DNA from: an uncultured Flavobacteriaceae bacterium
Lineage (GTDB): Bacteria > Bacteroidota > Bacteroidia > Flavobacteriales > Flavobacteriaceae
Direction: 5' to 3'
DNA: 64,000 bases
NCBI GenBank assembly: GCA_947502975.1
Contig: CANNBV010000008.1
Location: 62,001 to 126,000, forward strand
This document shows, one piece after another, positions 41,213 through 50,270 of this stretch. Made by a program: the position numbers and the translations under genes. The notes below the pieces were generated by a model. The model had not been told where the DNA came from. It did no database searches and worked only from the letters and a program-made list of their open reading frames with translations. The first letter of the stretch is position 1, and each line of letters opens with the position of its first letter.

Positions 41213-42607
41213 TTAGTTGAGTATTGAATTTATAGTAGTCCAAATAGTTTCAGATGCTCTGGTTGGGTTTTTTCCAACAATTATTTCAAACCACTTTTTA
41301 CCGTCTCCAACATTCGACAATTTACCATCAAGGATTTGCTTAATTAAGTGCTCTAGGTTATTTTTATCTCTACAAAATACCGCTGCGTTCTCACTAGGCA
41401 TACTTCTAAAATGAACATATTTATAATTCTGTCCTATATCACGTATCCCTTTTTTTAGTTGTGGTTGCTCATAATTATAATAAATACAAGATTTATCATG
41501 TGCTACAAAATCAAAAACTGTAGAAGAACACACATTAGTTACAAACTCACTGTGCTCGCACACATTGTATAGCATTTTAAAATCTTCCTTCGCAGGTAGA
41601 ACCTGATTCCATTGTTTACCTACTTGTTTCCAAATTGGATCTAAAACTTCTATAATATCGTTATAAGTATTTATAACCTCATCATATCTTGAAGTAAAAT
41701 CTACAGGGCATTTCCTGTAGATAATTCCAAGATTATAACCTTTCTCATTTAAACTCCTAACTGCGATTGCAAGATCTTCTAAATAATACTGATCTAGTGG
41801 AGACGTAGTTTCATCATCACCAGAATAGCAAATATATTTCTTCTTCACATCTAAATTATACTGTTCAAAAAACGTTTTCCTAGTTTCTTTTAAACTGTCA
41901 TCATAATGCGGTTCAAACTGAGGTGTCCCAGTAACAAATACTTGATTTTCTTTAACAAACGAATAATATTGCAGTACCTCTCGTTTCATATGTTGACTCC
42001 AAACACAGTAATAATCAGTTTCAACAACTTGCATTGCCTTAGGAACATTATCCCATGAATATACAAAAGCCACTGTAGGTATTCCCAAATCTTTAGCTGC
42101 TAACAAGGCGCTAATGGATTGTGTTGCACGTTGTGTTGTACAAAAAATTAAATCTGGTTTATGTGTTTCCAATTGCGCTCTACAATAGGCATATTTTGGG
42201 TTTTTACGCTCTAAAGCATTTATTTTTTTTCGAAGATATTCCACACCCTTTTCTGAAGAATATTTCCCAATTAAAAACTTGGTATATATACTTCTGATCG
42301 AATTTTTAATACCATTATAATTAAAAGGAAATTTATAAGTTGGATATACATCGTCATTAAATTTATCTCTTGATACGTTTAATTCACAACGTTTTCTGGC
42401 TCTGGAATATATAGGTGTTAATGGATGTATTTGATGATTTTCAATCTTAACTTCTTTAAAACCTAAATTGTCTTGAAGAGAAAAAACTGTATTATTCCAA
42501 TAGGTAATATCAAATCCCATGTTTTCACCTATAGCTTTAAAATCAGTAAAAGCAAAATTCCGTAAACCAACACCATCTGGAAAAAAAACGAAAACTTTTT
42601 TCTTCAT
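41213..42607 (-). CDS. putative GT-B-fold glycosyltransferase / surface carbohydrate biosynthesis protein of unassigned family
   Basis: 464 aa; PDLIFCTTQRATQSISALLAAKDLGIPTVAFVYSWDNVPKAMQVVETDYYCVWSQHMKREVL; directly downstream of neuB-like. Confidence 0.6.
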   Translation of the reverse strand: MKKKVFVFFPDGVGLRNFAFTDFKAIGENMGFDITYWNNTVFSLQDNLGFKEVKIENHQIHPLTPIYSRARKRCELNVSRDKFNDDVYPTYKFPFNYNGIKNSIRSIYTKFLIGKYSSEKGVEYLRKKINALERKNPKYAYCRAQLETHKPDLIFCTTQRATQSISALLAAKDLGIPTVAFVYSWDNVPKAMQVVETDYYCVWSQHMKREVLQYYSFVKENQVFVTGTPQFEPHYDDSLKETRKTFFEQYNLDVKKKYICYSGDDETTSPLDQYYLEDLAIAVRSLNEKGYNLGIIYRKCPVDFTSRYDEVINTYNDIIEVLDPIWKQVGKQWNQVLPAKEDFKMLYNVCEHSEFVTNVCSSTVFDFVAHDKSCIYYNYEQPQLKKGIRDIGQNYKYVHFRSMPSENAAVFCRDKNNLEHLIKQILDGKLSNVGDGKKWFEIIVGKNPTRASETIWTTINSILN

Positions 42608-42620
42608 TTCTTTTTTGAAA

Positions 42621-43496
42621 TTAGCCTTTTTGATTTTTCAACTTATCGCGTTGCACTTGTTCTATTGGCAAAATATCTTGTGATTTAAAACGTAATGCTT
42701 TATGAACTGCTCTTAAATCTCTAGACAATTTACGAAGTCCCATTGGTTCTAAAGAAGCTGCATGATCTGTCCCTTTCCATGTTCTATCTAAGGTATAATG
42801 GCGCTCTATAATAGTTGCACCTAATGTGTACGCAGCTACATCTACTGCTATACCTAAATGGTGCCCTGAAAAACCAATATGTTTTACATCTTTGCTATAT
42901 TTCTCGATTAGCAGATTAATATCTAATAAGCAAACATCTTCAAATGGCACAGGGTATCCAGACGTACAATTATATAAAACTAAGTCTTTATTTCTATTAT
43001 GTTTTTTGAAAAGTGCTACCAAATTATCAATTTCGTTTTTTGTGGTCATACCTGTAGAAATATGCAACTCTCCATGATAATTTTCACATAACCATTCTAG
43101 CATCTTAACATTATTATTACATGCTGAAGGTATTTTTATGAATTTTGGGCGTAATGACGTTATTTCTTGAGCAGAGGTTAAATCCCATACCGATGTTGAA
43201 TAATCAATATCAATATCCTCACAAAATAGTTTAAGAGCTTTATGCTGATGTACATCAAATTCTAAAAACTCACGATGTGCTCCATAAGTATCCCCATAAG
43301 AATTTACAGGATTAGGATGTGGTTGATTGTATTGCGCTTCAGTTAATAATTCTTTATTATTTCTCTTTTGAAATTTTACTGCATCTGCATCACAAAATAT
43401 TTTAGCAACTTTTATTAGCTCTTTAGCTGTTTCAAAATTACCTTTGTGATTACAACCAATTTCTGCTATAACATAGGGTTTTTTGTAGGTATTCAT
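42621..43496 (-). CDS. neuB: NeuB-family nonulosonate synthase lacking the C-terminal SAF domain
   Basis: PYVIAEIGCNHKGNFETAKELIKVAK...DAVKFQKR...FIKIPSACNNN...HISTGMTTKNEID...CTSGYPVPFEDVCL...IGFSGHHLG...IERHYTLD; ends at residue 291. Confidence 0.93.
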   Translation of the reverse strand: MNTYKKPYVIAEIGCNHKGNFETAKELIKVAKIFCDADAVKFQKRNNKELLTEAQYNQPHPNPVNSYGDTYGAHREFLEFDVHQHKALKLFCEDIDIDYSTSVWDLTSAQEITSLRPKFIKIPSACNNNVKMLEWLCENYHGELHISTGMTTKNEIDNLVALFKKHNRNKDLVLYNCTSGYPVPFEDVCLLDINLLIEKYSKDVKHIGFSGHHLGIAVDVAAYTLGATIIERHYTLDRTWKGTDHAASLEPMGLRKLSRDLRAVHKALRFKSQDILPIEQVQRDKLKNQKG

Positions 43497-43507
43497 ATAG
43501 ATATCGC

Positions 43508-44671
43508 CTAAAAGCGTAAATTGTAATTTTTAATAAACTGACATACTTCTCGAATAGCACCAGCACCAGAATTTTTAGATAGTACAACATCTGCAACTCT
43601 TTTAATCTCGTCCATTGCATTATTTGGTGCAAAAGACCAACCAACACTACAAATATTAGTCATATCGTTAACATCATCTCCAACGTATGCCACATTATTC
43701 AATGAAAAACCTTGAGCTATAGACAGAGATTGTAACAAAGTATATTTATCCTTAATCCCCAAAAAAACCTGAGGGATTTGGAGTTTTTGCATACGTTTAG
43801 CTACCAACTCGGACTGCTCACTCGTCATGACCATAATCTCAACACCAAATTGTCTTAAAATTTCCAATCCCATACCATCACGCATATCAAAACTTTTTGT
43901 ATGCTCTCCATTCTCGGTATAGGTGATAGTTCCGTCTGTGAAAACACCATCAACATCCAAAACCAAATGTGTTATTTTTTTTGGAAGCTTAGCTTTTTTT
44001 TGTCTTTCAATCAATAAATTCTCAACTACTACCCAATCAGATTCTGAATCTATTTCATGTAAACTTTCTTCTGGCATCTTTACAATACCAATAGAATCGC
44101 CTAATCTATTCCTATTCTTTTTAAGCGCTTCTTTTGTACAACAATACACTGCACCATTCTCTATTAAAAGGCCATCAAAATCCTGTCTTCTGGGGCGATT
44201 AGAAGGATTGTAATTCACTGGTAATCCATCTTCATTCCAAACAAACCTATGCGTATTAACTACTGTTAATGCAGAATCTTTTCCCTCGTCAATCTTGTTT
44301 AAACAATTTTCAATATCAACTGCTCTTGTAAAAGGAGAAGTGGCTTGTAATAGACAAAAAACATCAAATTCATATTTAATTTTTTCTGCGAATTCCAACA
44401 TTGCACTTTCAGTCGAAGCAGCATCAGTAGCTGACGCATCTGAGCGTTGTAAAACTTTAATTTTATTTGAATAGTAATATTCCTTTTCTATGAAACTAAT
44501 GATAGCATCGTCGTCCGTATATACATAAACCAAATCTAAACTAGATTGCATCGCTTCTGCCAATACCCATGTAAATAATGGTCTTCCAACCATTTTACGT
44601 TTGTTTTTTCCTAGAATACCTTTAGAGTTTTTTCTTAGAGGAATAAAACCGATTTTTTTCATAGAGCCCAC
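43508..44671 (-). CDS. bifunctional CMP-nonulosonate cytidylyltransferase (NeuA-like) plus HAD phosphatase (KdsC-like)
   Basis: N-term FIPLRKNSKGILGKNKRKMVGRPLFTWVLAEA...LLQATSPFT; C-term LVLDVDGVFTDGTITYTENGEHTKSFDMRDGMGLEIL...GIKDKYTLL...VAYVGDDVNDM. Confidence 0.94.
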   Translation of the reverse strand: MGSMKKIGFIPLRKNSKGILGKNKRKMVGRPLFTWVLAEAMQSSLDLVYVYTDDDAIISFIEKEYYYSNKIKVLQRSDASATDAASTESAMLEFAEKIKYEFDVFCLLQATSPFTRAVDIENCLNKIDEGKDSALTVVNTHRFVWNEDGLPVNYNPSNRPRRQDFDGLLIENGAVYCCTKEALKKNRNRLGDSIGIVKMPEESLHEIDSESDWVVVENLLIERQKKAKLPKKITHLVLDVDGVFTDGTITYTENGEHTKSFDMRDGMGLEILRQFGVEIMVMTSEQSELVAKRMQKLQIPQVFLGIKDKYTLLQSLSIAQGFSLNNVAYVGDDVNDMTNICSVGWSFAPNNAMDEIKRVADVVLSKNSGAGAIREVCQFIKNYNLRF

Positions 44672-44752: not shown

Positions 44753-45922
44753 CTATTCAATTTCTGATAATACTGTGTGTAAATAATCAATTTCCTTTTT
44801 AAGTAGTATTTGATGATTTCCAACAAAAAAGCCTTTGTCATCCAAATACTTAGCGTTTTTCATTGTACCAAAAATTTCATAATCAAAATACTTGAGTACA
44901 TCATTTTTAGTAAAATCTCCTGTGACTATAGGTCTACAATCGATATTATTGTCATTTAATAATGCAACAACATTACTTCTTTCTAAACGAGATTCTGGTT
45001 TAATAATCAAACTAAAACCAAACCAACTACTACTTGATATTTCTTTTTGAATCAAAAACTCTGGATGGTCTTTAAATAGCGATTTAAAATATTTAGCGTT
45101 TTCTCGTCTTACCCTCAAAAACTCTGGAAGTTTTTTTAATTGTTCTACCCCTATTGCTCCAGACATTTCTACTGGTCGTAAATTATACCCAGGTAATACA
45201 AAACGAAAAGATTCCTTAAACCAATCATCAGATTTATTGCTCACTTTATTTTCCTTTGGTAAATGTCGTGTCCACCCATGAGCTCTTAAGGCAATTAATA
45301 CATGATAAAGTTCTTCATTATCTGTTACAACCAAACCTCCTTCCATGGTTGCCATGTGATGGGAAAAAAATGTTGAAAACGTTCCCATAATACCAAAAGT
45401 ACCGGCTTGTTTACCATTGTATTCGGCACCCATTGATTCACAGTTGTCTTCTAATAAAATAATATCCTTACCCGCAATAAGGTTCTTAATACTATCAAAA
45501 TCATTTGGATTACCTAAAAGGTTAACAGCAAAGATCATTTTAGTATTTTCAGTAATAGCTTCTTCTAACTGTTGTAAATCGAAATTTAATGTGTGTAAGT
45601 TTACATCGACAAACTTAAGTTTTAAACCATATTGATACAGTGGAAAATATGTAGTACTCCATGATACCGCTGGCACAATAACTTCATCACCTCGCTTTAA
45701 CTTTGGGTTTTTAGTATAAAATAGGGCCGCAACTGCTAATAAATTAGCAGACGATCCTGAATTTACCATTACACTATATTTTGAGCCTACAAATTTTGCA
45801 AAATCTGTCTCAAACTGTGCTACATGTTTACCCATTGTATACATATCACTATGTATCACAGTATTTATAGCTTCTATTTCTTTATCGTCCCAAGTTGAGG
45901 TTGCTAGTGGGTATTTAATCAT
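44753..45922 (-). CDS. DegT/DnrJ/EryC1/StrS-family PLP enzyme with His at the catalytic Lys position; ColD-like 3-dehydratase predicted
   Basis: NSGSSANLLAVAAL, LEDNCESMGAEYNGKQAGTFGIMGTFSTFFSHHMATMEGGLVVTD (HH where aminotransferases carry the Schiff-base Lys). Confidence 0.82.
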   Translation of the reverse strand: MIKYPLATSTWDDKEIEAINTVIHSDMYTMGKHVAQFETDFAKFVGSKYSVMVNSGSSANLLAVAALFYTKNPKLKRGDEVIVPAVSWSTTYFPLYQYGLKLKFVDVNLHTLNFDLQQLEEAITENTKMIFAVNLLGNPNDFDSIKNLIAGKDIILLEDNCESMGAEYNGKQAGTFGIMGTFSTFFSHHMATMEGGLVVTDNEELYHVLIALRAHGWTRHLPKENKVSNKSDDWFKESFRFVLPGYNLRPVEMSGAIGVEQLKKLPEFLRVRRENAKYFKSLFKDHPEFLIQKEISSSSWFGFSLIIKPESRLERSNVVALLNDNNIDCRPIVTGDFTKNDVLKYFDYEIFGTMKNAKYLDDKGFFVGNHQILLKKEIDYLHTVLSEIE

Positions 45923-46841
45923 TTAAAACAACATTTTTATAAAAATCATACGTTTTTTTAATGCCTTCTTTTAAGGATGTTTTTGATTTCCAGCCAAAAG
46001 AATTAAGCAGCGTATCATCAATTAGTTTTTGTTTCATGCCAACTGGCTTTGAGGTGTCATGAATAAATTCACCTTTATATCCTACAACATTAGCTATGGT
46101 TTGGTAGTACTCATTGATAGTCCAATCGGTACCTAAACCTACATTAATATTCTGAGGTAATTTATCTAGATGTGTGATGGCATAAAAAATAAAATCAGCC
46201 AAATCTTGAGCATACATAAACTCTCGCCTTGCTTTCCCGTCTCCCCAAATTTCTACAGCTGGTAATCGATTTTTTTCTGCATCATGTATTTTTTTAATAA
46301 CTGCAGGAATCATGTGAGAATTTTTAGGTGAAAATTTATCATATCTACCGTATAAGTTACACGGTATTATTGTACTATACTTATATCCTTCATGTGTTTT
46401 GGTAATATACTCACATAGCCGTGTTGCAACAATTTTAGCCAAAGCATATCCTTCATTAGTTGGTTCTAATTCACCTTTTAAAATATAGCTTTCTTTTAAA
46501 GGGTTTTTAGCTTCCCTTGGATACATGCACGAACTTGATAAATTAATGAACGTAGGAACTTCAGCAGCTTTTGCTGCCATAATAACATTTCTACCTATAT
46601 CCAAATTTTTGATTAAAAAATCAACTGGATTAGCCATATTTGCTTGAATTCCACCCACCATTCCAGCAGCGTGTATCACTAAATCTGGTTGGTGTTTTTT
46701 CATGTAATTTAAAACTTCATTTTTATGTTCTAAATTAACTTCAGAACGAGATGGTTTTAGAAATATATAATTAGCTGCACTAGGATGCTCTAATATATTA
46801 CGTCCAACCATTCCCGTATGTCCTGTTAGGAGAATTTTCAT
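45915..46841 (-). CDS. GDP-L-fucose synthase / GDP-L-colitose synthase-like SDR epimerase-reductase
   Basis: GHTGMVGRNILEH, HAAGMVGGIQANMANPVDF, SSSCMYPREAKNPLKESYILKGELEPTNEGYALAK. Confidence 0.88.
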   Translation of the reverse strand: MKILLTGHTGMVGRNILEHPSAANYIFLKPSRSEVNLEHKNEVLNYMKKHQPDLVIHAAGMVGGIQANMANPVDFLIKNLDIGRNVIMAAKAAEVPTFINLSSSCMYPREAKNPLKESYILKGELEPTNEGYALAKIVATRLCEYITKTHEGYKYSTIIPCNLYGRYDKFSPKNSHMIPAVIKKIHDAEKNRLPAVEIWGDGKARREFMYAQDLADFIFYAITHLDKLPQNINVGLGTDWTINEYYQTIANVVGYKGEFIHDTSKPVGMKQKLIDDTLLNSFGWKSKTSLKEGIKKTYDFYKNVVLND

Positions 46842-46852
46842 TTTATGCTGCT

Positions 46853-47914
46853 CTATTTTTTAAGATTTTGAACATGCTCTAAATCATGCTTCATCATTAT
46901 TTCCACAAGTGTTTTAAATGATGTTTTTGTTGGATTCCAGCCTAAATTGTTTTTAGCTTTTGAAGGGTTTCCTAAAAGCGTTTCAACTTCAGCCAACCTA
47001 TAATAATTAGAATCTATCTCAATTAAAACTTTACCAGTATTTGTACAAATTCCTTTTTCATTTTCTCCTGAGCCTTGCCATTCTATTTCAATACCTGCTT
47101 CACTAAAGGCTAATTCACAAAATTCTCTTACAGTATGCTGCTCTCCAGTTCCAATAACATAATCTTCGGGAATATCTTGCTGTAACATTAGCCACATACA
47201 TTCTACATAATCTTTTGCATACCCCCAATCTCTTTTAGCATCTAAATTACCTAAATACAATTTCTCTTGAATACCATGTGCAATTCTTGCTGCTGCCAGT
47301 GTAATTTTTCTGGTTACAAAGGTTTCTCCACGTCTTTCGGATTCATGATTAAACAATATGCCATTAACTGCATACATCCCATAGGATTCTCTATAGTTTT
47401 TAGTAATCCAAAATGCATATAATTTAGCTACTCCATATGGAGAACGAGGATAAAAAGGAGTAGTTTCAGTTTGGGGTACTTCTTGTACTTTTCCATACAA
47501 CTCAGATGTAGAAGCTTGATAAATTCTTGTCTTTTCTGTCAGCCCACAAATGCGAATAGCTTCAAGTAATTTCAACGTACCTACACCATCTGTCTCTGCA
47601 GTATATTCAGGTAAATCGAAGGATACTTTTACATGAGATTGTGCTGCTAAATTGTAAATCTCATCTGGCTGCAATTCCTGTACGAGTCTAATTAAGTTAG
47701 AACCATCGGTCATATCTCCATAGTGCAATTTTATATTTTGCTTTTCGTGTAAATCTTTCAGTAAGGTATCTATATAGAGGTGTTCAATACGTTCGGTGTT
47801 AAACGTAGAACTTCGTCTTATAATTCCATGAACCATATAACCTTTTTCTATCAATAATTCTGCTAAGTAAGAACCATCTTGTCCATTAATACCTGTAATA
47901 AGGGCAACTTTCAT
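46853..47914 (-). CDS. gmd: GDP-mannose 4,6-dehydratase
   Basis: [46 protein letters not shown]...[34 protein letters not shown]...[18 protein letters not shown]. Confidence 0.97.
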
Positions 47915-47916
47915 TT

Positions 47917-48828
47917 CTAATCTATCTGTTTATTTGAATTGATAAATGTACTAATTTCTGAGGTGAAAATACTTGCACCATTTTTTAACAAGTGCGAGTA
48001 ATCATAAAAATACTTCGGGTTTTTATATTGGGGCTTTAAAGTATCATAGATTATGACATTTGCTTCTGAAGTTAGTAACATTTTAAAACGTCTGTAAAAA
48101 TCGTTATTAAACGCTCTAAAACTAGGGGAAAAAGCATATATCAACTCTATATGGTTTTGTTTACATATGTTTTGAATACTCTTAAAAGCTTTAATTTTTA
48201 ACGCATCTTCTTCATTTTGATTATAACTTTTATTGGTTTTATTGTAGACCAGTTTCATGTCTTGCCCTTTTAATAATGGCATTGAACCGCAGCTATCAAG
48301 AGGATTGTTTTTAGACGCACTCTTCTTATCCCAAAGAAAATGTGTTTTATGTAATCGGGACAAATAAAATATATATGATAATTTACTATTAGTACCAGAT
48401 TTCACTAAACTATTATTTATATAATTATATTTAGTAAAAGGTTGCAACATGTCTGTTCTATAAATTATGGTTTTGTCTTCTATAAATTGACTGGGATTAT
48501 CAATTACCAAAATTACTTTTTTAGGGTTTTTATTAAACTTCACTAGTGTTTTTAATATAAATTCATGAAAGTTAACATTAGATCCTTGATACCCTAAGTT
48601 AAAAGTTTTTAACCCAGTTTCTTCCTCCAGTTGGCATGCCAATATATTATCAGCTCCTTTTGAAGATCCTAAAATAATTAAGTCTTTTTCTATGTTACCA
48701 TTTACAAGGGCTTCAATTCGTCTATCAAACTGTTTAGCAGGAGCAGCGGCGACTATAAACCACGAGACTTTTTCTAAAATAAAAAAGATAACTATGAACA
48801 ATAAAATTCGCTTAATAAACTGCTTCAT
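47917..48828 (-). CDS. single-TM SGNH-like protein, probable O-acetylation partner of the adjacent MBOAT
   Basis: N-terminal [55 protein letters not shown] (D-x-x-H-like C-terminal motif). Confidence 0.7.
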
Positions 48829-48830
48829 AA

Positions 48831-50270
48831 TTAAAATTGAAAATATATAAATTCCTGCTGAGATTGATTACTAAATACAAAAATCAACGCTAATAAAAAC
48901 ATATAAAACCCCCATCGATAAAATACAGATTGTTTCAATAATAATTTCTCGATAGCATACTTTTTTCCTTTTCCTAACCATTCAATAGTAAAAAAGAATA
49001 CTATGGCTAAAATTATATTTGTAGGCCTAATTGTTGGCAATGAAAATAAGGTCTTAGAAAATACTTCATCTAAAAAATTAAAAGCATGAGACATAGTTTC
49101 TGCTCTAAAAAACACCCACGCTAATACGGTTATCATAAACGTAAAAAACACCCCAAACATTTCCCTAAGATTTGGTAACAACTTGTTTTGTGCTATAACA
49201 TCTAAATTATTTCTATTTCGATTTGTAATTAACAAAGGCAGAAAATATATAGCATTTAAAAAACCCCAAAAAATGAATGTCCAATTAGCACCATGCCAAA
49301 AGCCACTTACTATAAAGATCAAAAATATATTTCTGATTTTTAGCCAAATACTTCCTCTACTTCCTCCTACAGGAATATACAGATAGTCTCTAAACCATGT
49401 TGAAAGAGATATGTGCCAACGTCTCCAAAATTCGGCAATATCTCTTGAAAAGTAAGGGAACGCAAAATTCTGCTTAAGGTTAAAACCAAACAGTCTTGCT
49501 GTACCAATTGCAATATCTGAATACCCGGAAAAGTCACCATAAATTTGAAAGGTAAAAAATAGAGCTCCAACGAATAAGGTACTCCCTGAATATTCCGAAG
49601 AATTATTAAAAATTAAGTTCGCATATTCAGCACATCCATCAGCAATTACAATCTTTTTAAATAGCCCCCATAATATTTGTCTACAACCATCTACTGCCTT
49701 CGAATAATAAAATACCCTTTTGTTATAAAATTGTGGTAAAAGATGTGTAGCTCTTTCAATAGGCCCAGCAACAAGTTGAGGAAAAAAGCTAACAAATGCC
49801 AAGAAAGAAACTATATCTGAAGTAGGTTCTAATCTCCGTTTATAAACATCAATAGTATAACTTAATGTCTGAAACGTATAAAAACTAATCCCAACAGGAA
49901 GAATGATATTTAATGTGTTAGGTTGAACTTTAGTTCCAAAAAACGAAAAGGCTTGCACAAAATTATCAACAAAAAAATTGTAGTATTTGAAAAACCCAAG
50001 AAACCCAAGATTTACTATGATACTTATCCAAAGTAGAGTTTTTCTAATTGAATGTTTATTGTCTTCTTTCAACTTTAAACCAATAGTATAATCTACCAAG
50101 GAACTAAACAGAATTAAAGTTAAAAATCGATAATCCCACCATCCATAGAAGACATAACTAGCGACTACCAGTAAAAGGTTTTGCAATTTCAAACTTTTAT
50201 TCGCAATAAACCAATATAGAATGAATACTATTGGTAGAAAAACTGCAAAATCTAAAGAGTTAAATAACAT
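48831..50270 (-). CDS. MBOAT-family O-acyltransferase (AlgI/DltB-like)
   Basis: ILPVGISFYTFQTLSYTIDVYKRR...FFPQLVAGPIERATHLLPQF...DFSGYSDIAIGTARLFGF...FWRRWHISLSTWFRDYLYIPVGG...SGFWHGANWTFIFWG. Confidence 0.97.
   Translation of the reverse strand: MLFNSLDFAVFLPIVFILYWFIANKSLKLQNLLLVVASYVFYGWWDYRFLTLILFSSLVDYTIGLKLKEDNKHSIRKTLLWISIIVNLGFLGFFKYYNFFVDNFVQAFSFFGTKVQPNTLNIILPVGISFYTFQTLSYTIDVYKRRLEPTSDIVSFLAFVSFFPQLVAGPIERATHLLPQFYNKRVFYYSKAVDGCRQILWGLFKKIVIADGCAEYANLIFNNSSEYSGSTLFVGALFFTFQIYGDFSGYSDIAIGTARLFGFNLKQNFAFPYFSRDIAEFWRRWHISLSTWFRDYLYIPVGGSRGSIWLKIRNIFLIFIVSGFWHGANWTFIFWGFLNAIYFLPLLITNRNRNNLDVIAQNKLLPNLREMFGVFFTFMITVLAWVFFRAETMSHAFNFLDEVFSKTLFSLPTIRPTNIILAIVFFFTIEWLGKGKKYAIEKLLLKQSVFYRWGFYMFLLALIFVFSNQSQQEFIYFQF

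Follow-up and report, generated by a model that had tools for sequence, protein, structure and literature searches.

Gene content of the locus

The window, a 64,000-nucleotide stretch from the genome of an uncultured Flavobacteriaceae bacterium, carries on its minus strand an open reading frame (43508-44671) that joins a NeuA-type cytidylyltransferase domain to a phosphatase domain of the HAD type. A gene for a NeuB-family synthase lies 11 bp downstream, followed by one for a 464-aa protein (Table 1).

Table 1. Features of the locus, in window coordinates.
Feature	Coordinates	Strand	Remarks
464-aa GT-B-fold protein, candidate CMP-nonulosonate transferase	41213..42607	-	distant relative of BFO_1060 glycosyltransferases
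NeuB-family synthase, 291 aa, predicted Kdn-9-P synthase	42621..43496	-	no SAF domain; KFQKR...NSYGDTYGAHR motif
Fused NeuA-HAD protein	43508..44662	-	384 aa from ATG 44662; 387 aa from GTG 44671
HAD type C0 (KdsC/YrbI-like) phosphatase domain, residues 230-382	43526..43984	-	
Cytidylyltransferase (NeuA) domain, residues 5-219	44015..44659	-	best solved relative PpNeuA CMP-Kdn synthetase 9t4z
ColD-type GDP-4-keto-6-deoxymannose 3-dehydratase	44753..45922	-	593 bits to ColD/WbdK 2gms (E. coli); DegT family
GDP-fucose-synthase-like epimerase/reductase, probable ColC	45915..46841	-	below Fcl equivalog cut-off
GDP-mannose 4,6-dehydratase (Gmd)	46853..47914	-	

The GTG start of the fused gene is situated three codons before an ATG. 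In an alignment of 24 sequences, the homologues start at MKK; since an ATG is available there, the shorter form is the more likely. Pfam detected CTP_transf_3 in residues 8-143 (E 8e-13; 49 bits, cut-off 22.6) and, as HAD-family match, Hydrolase_3 (3.9e-8). Together with the NCBIfam matches, these results bear out the initial annotation, which had described a CMP-sugar synthetase fused to a HAD domain with intact motifs; indeed, DVDGVFTDG, TSE, GIKDKY and GDDVND are all found in the translation. The AlphaFold2 model displayed two folded domains (mean pLDDT 84.8) and was weaker around residues 141-171 and 241-260. A scan of genome_contigs retrieved 80 fusion loci with 62-85% identity, all of them uninterrupted, and no catalytic residue of either domain varied among the 24 aligned fusion sequences. 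Thus, the architecture does not result from chance. The protein is predicted to be a bifunctional nonulosonate-9-phosphate phosphatase and CMP-nonulosonate (Kdn) synthetase. No published characterization of a bacterial NeuA-HAD fusion was found in the open-access literature searched.

In vertebrate CMAS, the synthetase likewise precedes a KdsC-like HAD. The C-terminal HAD-like domain of CMAS had already been pointed out, and mouse structures 1qwj and 3ewi match the NeuA and HAD halves, respectively. The vertebrate module is reportedly not an active phosphatase, whereas the phosphatase active site of the flavobacterial fusion is intact; the fused HAD represents an apparently active counterpart of this module.

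NeuB was present at 78 of the 80 fusion loci (within 300 bp in 70) and the 464-aa glycosyltransferase at 75; the three genes form a module in most of the 80 flavobacterial genomes. Among the neighbours compared, only these two were consistently kept with the fusion. Here, the module is part of a large polysaccharide cluster encoding an initiating sugar transferase, an O-antigen-ligase-like protein, GT10 and GT11 transferases, a pyruvyltransferase and a Wzt-type ABC exporter subunit. Directly upstream, gmd, the probable colC and colD (44753-47914) predict the formation of GDP-L-colitose. colD is a neighbour outside the conserved module, and a ColD-like gene was observed beside 5 of the 80 fusion loci. 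Finally, an MBOAT O-acyltransferase and a 303-aa protein without Pfam match (47917-50270, minus strand) are likely involved in polysaccharide O-acylation.

Specificity of the two halves

The HAD domain, with D239/D241 as nucleophile pair, passed the KdsC/YrbI subfamily model of NCBIfam (TIGR01670, HAD type C0) with 139 bits for a cut-off of 107. Scores were below the equivalog cut-offs for both the BT1713-type Kdn-9-P phosphatase (NF058599; 133 bits, cut-off 180) and KdsC proper (PRK09484/NF007019; 121.8 bits, cut-off 208). The NF058599 family was matched by 24 of 24 tested homologues of the fusion. Specificity positions were mapped on BT1713 (structure 3e81), the Kdn-9-P phosphatase of B. thetaiotaomicron, of which E56, R64 and K67 correspond to E285, R293 and K296 of the fused protein. 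In BT1713 numbering, D10, D12, T54, E56, R64, K67, K80 and D103-D104 were kept in all 89 fused HAD domains. According to the alignments, BT1713 is also represented by PDB entries 4hgq and 4hgr, in which alanine replaces E56, or E56 and K67. E56 and K67 are lacking in all 21 KdsC enzymes from genomes within the same order, where position 56 is G and position 67 is G, A or L. E56 and K67 were also detected in some solitary HADs of other Bacteroidota with no NeuB nearby. Therefore, this signature is insufficient alone, and we dropped it as proof of function by itself. In HAD trees, the query clade is adjacent to KdsC on a long branch (about 1 change per site); the trees are compatible with a closer kinship to either KdsC or BT1713 and do not settle specificity.

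The HAD half might be a structural, tetramer-forming module or a captured Kdo-8-P phosphatase, with an unphosphorylated route of synthesis. The match to the broad KdsC model and the position beside KdsC in the trees are consistent with this possibility. Moreover, C0 HADs are tetrameric, and a role in tetramerization has been reported for the vertebrate CMAS module (Oschlies et al. 2009). However, all HAD catalytic residues are invariant, E56 and K67 stand in place of the KdsC residues, and HAD linkage coincides with the KR motif of NeuB described below. The genome also encodes a separate KdsC and KdsA; therefore, Kdo synthesis does not require the fusion. Such a role thus appears highly improbable.

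For the NeuA domain, the top match by both sequence and fold was 9t4z, 'PpNeuA CMP-Kdn synthetase' (42-43% identity, E 6e-22). Identity was 31-32% to the murine CMP-Neu5Ac synthetase and 23-26% to the Vibrio and Neisseria enzymes. In the tree, PpNeuA groups with the fused domains, apart from the free NeuAs of relatives (support 100/99). The invariant CTP and metal residues are R13, K22-N23, Q109, S112-P113, E171-N172, D208 and D212. PpNeuA differs from the fused protein in that no HAD domain was seen in its chain. Judging from its name, it is probably the enzyme of Prymnesium parvum. For this alga, biochemical work established a Kdn-9-P synthase and a CMP-Kdn synthetase, and a Kdn-9-P phosphatase was not identified; the B. 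thetaiotaomicron phosphatase acts on the product of the P. parvum synthase (PMC6200933).

The adjacent synthase, precursor supply and proposed pathway

The genome contains one NeuB only, that of the module. No SAF domain was detected in it by Pfam, and among Pfam and NCBIfam models it passed the NeuB catalytic family only; its score against the N-acetylneuraminate synthase equivalog (NeuB/NnaB, TIGR03569) was 196 bits for a cut-off of 399.65. The NeuB proteins beside the fusion measure 285-300 aa in 76 of 78 loci. This is too short for an SAF domain. Fusion-linked NeuBs share the motif KFQKR…NSYGxTYGxHRxxLE, with K44 and R45 each conserved in 86 of 87 sequences. Both residues were also present in 10/10 NeuBs linked to a free HAD and having that region, and in none of the NeuC-linked (0/9) or other, Leg/Pse-type (0/10) synthases. 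The NeuBs of two loci with BT1713-like phosphatases (L023, L024) share the K-R pair and the SFGxTYGxHR part. In the NeuB tree, HAD-linked synthases form their own side (100/99).

Family searches of the whole genome (99.99% complete) revealed neither a UDP-GlcNAc 2-epimerase (PF02350) nor NanE, and the absence of the former, previously reported for the window, thus holds for the entire genome. The initial annotation had taken this absence to fit either Man-6-P or ManNAc-6-P as substrate. Only the Man-6-P part can be retained, as synthesis of ManNAc-6-P also requires an epimerase (GNE, NanE or AGE). For this reason, Man-6-P and Kdn are favoured over Neu5Ac. The gene for ManA precedes the window by about 26 kb on the same contig. 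The sole AGE-family protein of the genome scores highest against cellobiose 2-epimerases (320 bits, versus at most 144 for N-acylglucosamine 2-epimerases) and its gene adjoins one that looks like GH130; it was therefore set aside as a source of ManNAc. In a survey of 40 genomes, a PF02350 match over the cut-off was absent in 11 of the 19 that bear the fusion. Among the eight others, only G021 has one near the fusion, at about 3.5 kb, and it scores like WecB-type enzymes. In the same survey, classical SAF-type NeuB genes typically adjoin NeuC. A convincing NeuC was found at none of the 80 fusion loci. The most parsimonious assignment is thus Man-6-P as precursor and Kdn as product.

We consider it likely that the locus supplies a surface polysaccharide with CMP-Kdn, formed by way of Man-6-P, Kdn-9-P and Kdn. 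In the proposed pathway, NeuB would condense mannose-6-phosphate with phosphoenolpyruvate to give Kdn-9-phosphate, from which the HAD half of the fused protein would take off the 9-phosphate. The NeuA half would then transfer CMP from CTP onto free Kdn, and the GT-B transferase would add Kdn from CMP-Kdn to a glycan of the surface polysaccharide. The substrates, the coupling of the two half-reactions and the role of the transferase are the parts that we infer. A phosphorylated route, as in animals and Bacteroides, had been proposed at the outset, and it is supported by independent lines: the HAD specificity residues, the motif of HAD-linked NeuBs, the lack of NeuC and NanE in the genome and the kinship of NeuA with PpNeuA. 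The usual view is that bacteria make sialic-acid-like sugars without 9-phosphate intermediates.

The pathway might instead proceed as in animals, from ManNAc-6-P through Neu5Ac-9-P to CMP-Neu5Ac. BT1713 reportedly bound Neu5Ac in a crystal (Lu et al. 2009), and the motif of the fusion-linked NeuBs is presumably similar to that of human NANS. In addition, the human synthase yields both phosphorylated sugars (PMC9000132). Against this, the genome has neither a UDP-GlcNAc 2-epimerase nor NanE, its AGE-family protein resembles cellobiose 2-epimerases most, and no convincing NeuC was found at the 80 fusion loci, so that a Neu5Ac product seems quite improbable.

Use of another hexose-6-phosphate by the synthase, giving a different 9-phosphorylated nonulosonate that the fusion would dephosphorylate and activate, is unlikely. 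The divergence of the query HAD clade and its score under the Kdn-9-P phosphatase cut-off leave room for it, and rare sugars are frequent products of polysaccharide loci. However, E56, R64 and K67 are conserved, the NeuA domain is nearest to a CMP-Kdn synthetase, and among the neighbours compared none stays consistently with the fusion apart from NeuB and the transferase.

The preferred Kdn pathway would comprise the same three predicted steps as that of Bacteroides thetaiotaomicron, with HAD residues E56, R64 and K67 common to both; we take BT1714 to be the Kdn-9-P synthase and BT1715 the CMP-Kdn synthetase. The two systems differ in organization: loci of the Bacteroides type have a free phosphatase and a NeuB of about 345 aa, whereas in the window a SAF-less NeuB accompanies a phosphatase joined to the synthetase. 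From its sequence, the system appears to be a Bacteroides-type Kdn pathway in which a single chain carries both phosphatase and CMP-Kdn synthetase. The fused protein is an enzyme candidate for one-pot CMP-Kdn synthesis. Furthermore, E56 and K67 in the HAD, combined with the KFQKR…HR motif of NeuB and no NeuC, could serve as sequence markers for calling Kdn-type pathways.

The candidate transferase and the distribution of the fusion

The predicted structure of the 464-aa protein has a GT-B fold (pLDDT 88.7). Its score against the BFO_1060 glycosyltransferase model of NCBIfam was 40.8 bits for a cut-off of 200, and 25 of 27 homologues also matched this model weakly. A weak relationship to CDP-glycerol glycerophosphotransferases was also detected. 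The protein was present in 22 of the 50 genomes searched and lay near nonulosonate genes, about 0.1 to 10 kb away, in 21 of these; in eight of the 21, which have classical loci, it accompanies NeuC. None of ten genomes included for having no clear NeuA contained it. Classical NeuB-NeuC-NeuA loci of the same family (L157, L158) have a homologue of it and the same kind of product step, but differ from the fusion loci by a NeuB of 335-336 aa, an adjacent NeuC, a free NeuA and no HAD phosphatase. Since it is also found beside classical NeuA, NeuB and NeuC genes, the 464-aa protein is a candidate nonulosonate transferase. Its gene association suggests that it may act on CMP-Kdn here, and it would define a candidate transferase family without assigned donor. 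The predicted fold also resembles that of UDP-GlcNAc 2-epimerases. A hidden 2-epimerase was rejected, as classical loci have this protein in addition to NeuC, and profile comparison with NeuC gave no match. Nonulosonate transferases of Tannerella measure about 445 aa, and GtfS is of the GT-B type (PMC6388019, PMC6120980).

This form of the fusion is found in 11 of the 12 genomes of the genus, including that of the window, and in two other genera of the family sample (63-74%). The twelfth genome, G003, has a more distant fusion (38%) that belongs to a second lineage; its 464-aa transferase is located on another contig (C3:121593), away from its only NeuB. The 80 fusion loci come from Hyunsoonleella, Jejuia, Olleya, Algibacter, Mariniflexile, Tamlana, Lacinutrix, Nonlabens, Zunongwangia, Flavobacterium and others.

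Fusions of the same layout were also found on plasmids of Sinorhizobium meliloti, S. fredii, Ensifer, Rhizobium, Marinovum, Pseudorhodobacter, Maritalea and Tritonibacter, and every complete copy contains E56, R64 and K67. The adjacent or nearby NeuBs are SAF-less with KFQKR and HR; in Tritonibacter, only a pseudaminate-type NeuB is near. These alphaproteobacterial proteins share architecture and HAD residues with the flavobacterial fusion but differ in sequence (29-33% identity) and are accompanied by other glycosyltransferases (DUF6716, an annotated alpha-2,3-sialyltransferase). A polysaccharide from S. fredii reportedly contains Kdn (Gil-Serrano 1998). In Rhizobium sp. 32-5/1 (L201:4953-6168), NeuA-HAD is split over two overlapping frames, due to a frameshift or a sequencing error. 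Several of the Rhodobacterales and Maritalea fusions adjoin an AGE-family epimerase; therefore, other species may use a different precursor. Fusions beside such an epimerase were observed on the Marinovum, Maritalea and Tritonibacter plasmids (L203, L206, L207), suggesting another precursor supply, and two of these three loci also have the annotated alpha-2,3-sialyltransferase beside the fusion.

A single origin of all fusions was rejected by the HAD tree (AU p = 0.0006; 2.5e-7 with added lineages). Fusion, exchange or fission thus occurred more than once, and long branches in the HAD trees make the exact number of such events uncertain. The HAD tree is compatible with a shared origin of the query lineage and the alphaproteobacterial and actinobacterial fusions (p = 0.24). 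The occurrence of the module across marine flavobacterial genera, and of related forms in rhizobia, Rhodobacterales and one actinomycete, predicts Kdn on many environmental bacteria. Tentatively, and with slightly less than even confidence, we suggest a wider picture in which Kdn, made from Man-6-P by the bifunctional enzyme, frequently occurs as a surface sugar in marine Flavobacteriaceae; the 464-aa GT-B proteins are a new family of CMP-nonulosonate transferases serving both Kdn and NeuABC routes; and the 9-phosphatase became fused to the synthetase on more than one occasion in bacteria, with a NeuA-HAD-NeuB chain in Nonomuraea as the extreme case.

In Nonomuraea gerenzanensis (L199:7854-10046), NeuA, HAD (with E56, R64 and K67) and NeuB domains occur in one 730-aa frame, and the NeuB part has KFQKR and lacks HR. 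This chain could be a single-chain enzyme leading from Man-6-P to CMP-Kdn. Among actinomycetes, the walls of Streptomyces contain Kdn (PMC11481543, PMC7831098). A different arrangement was observed in L162 (4870-6615), where a 581-aa fusion of a cytidylyltransferase with a SAF-containing NeuB is located beside a free BT1713-type phosphatase.
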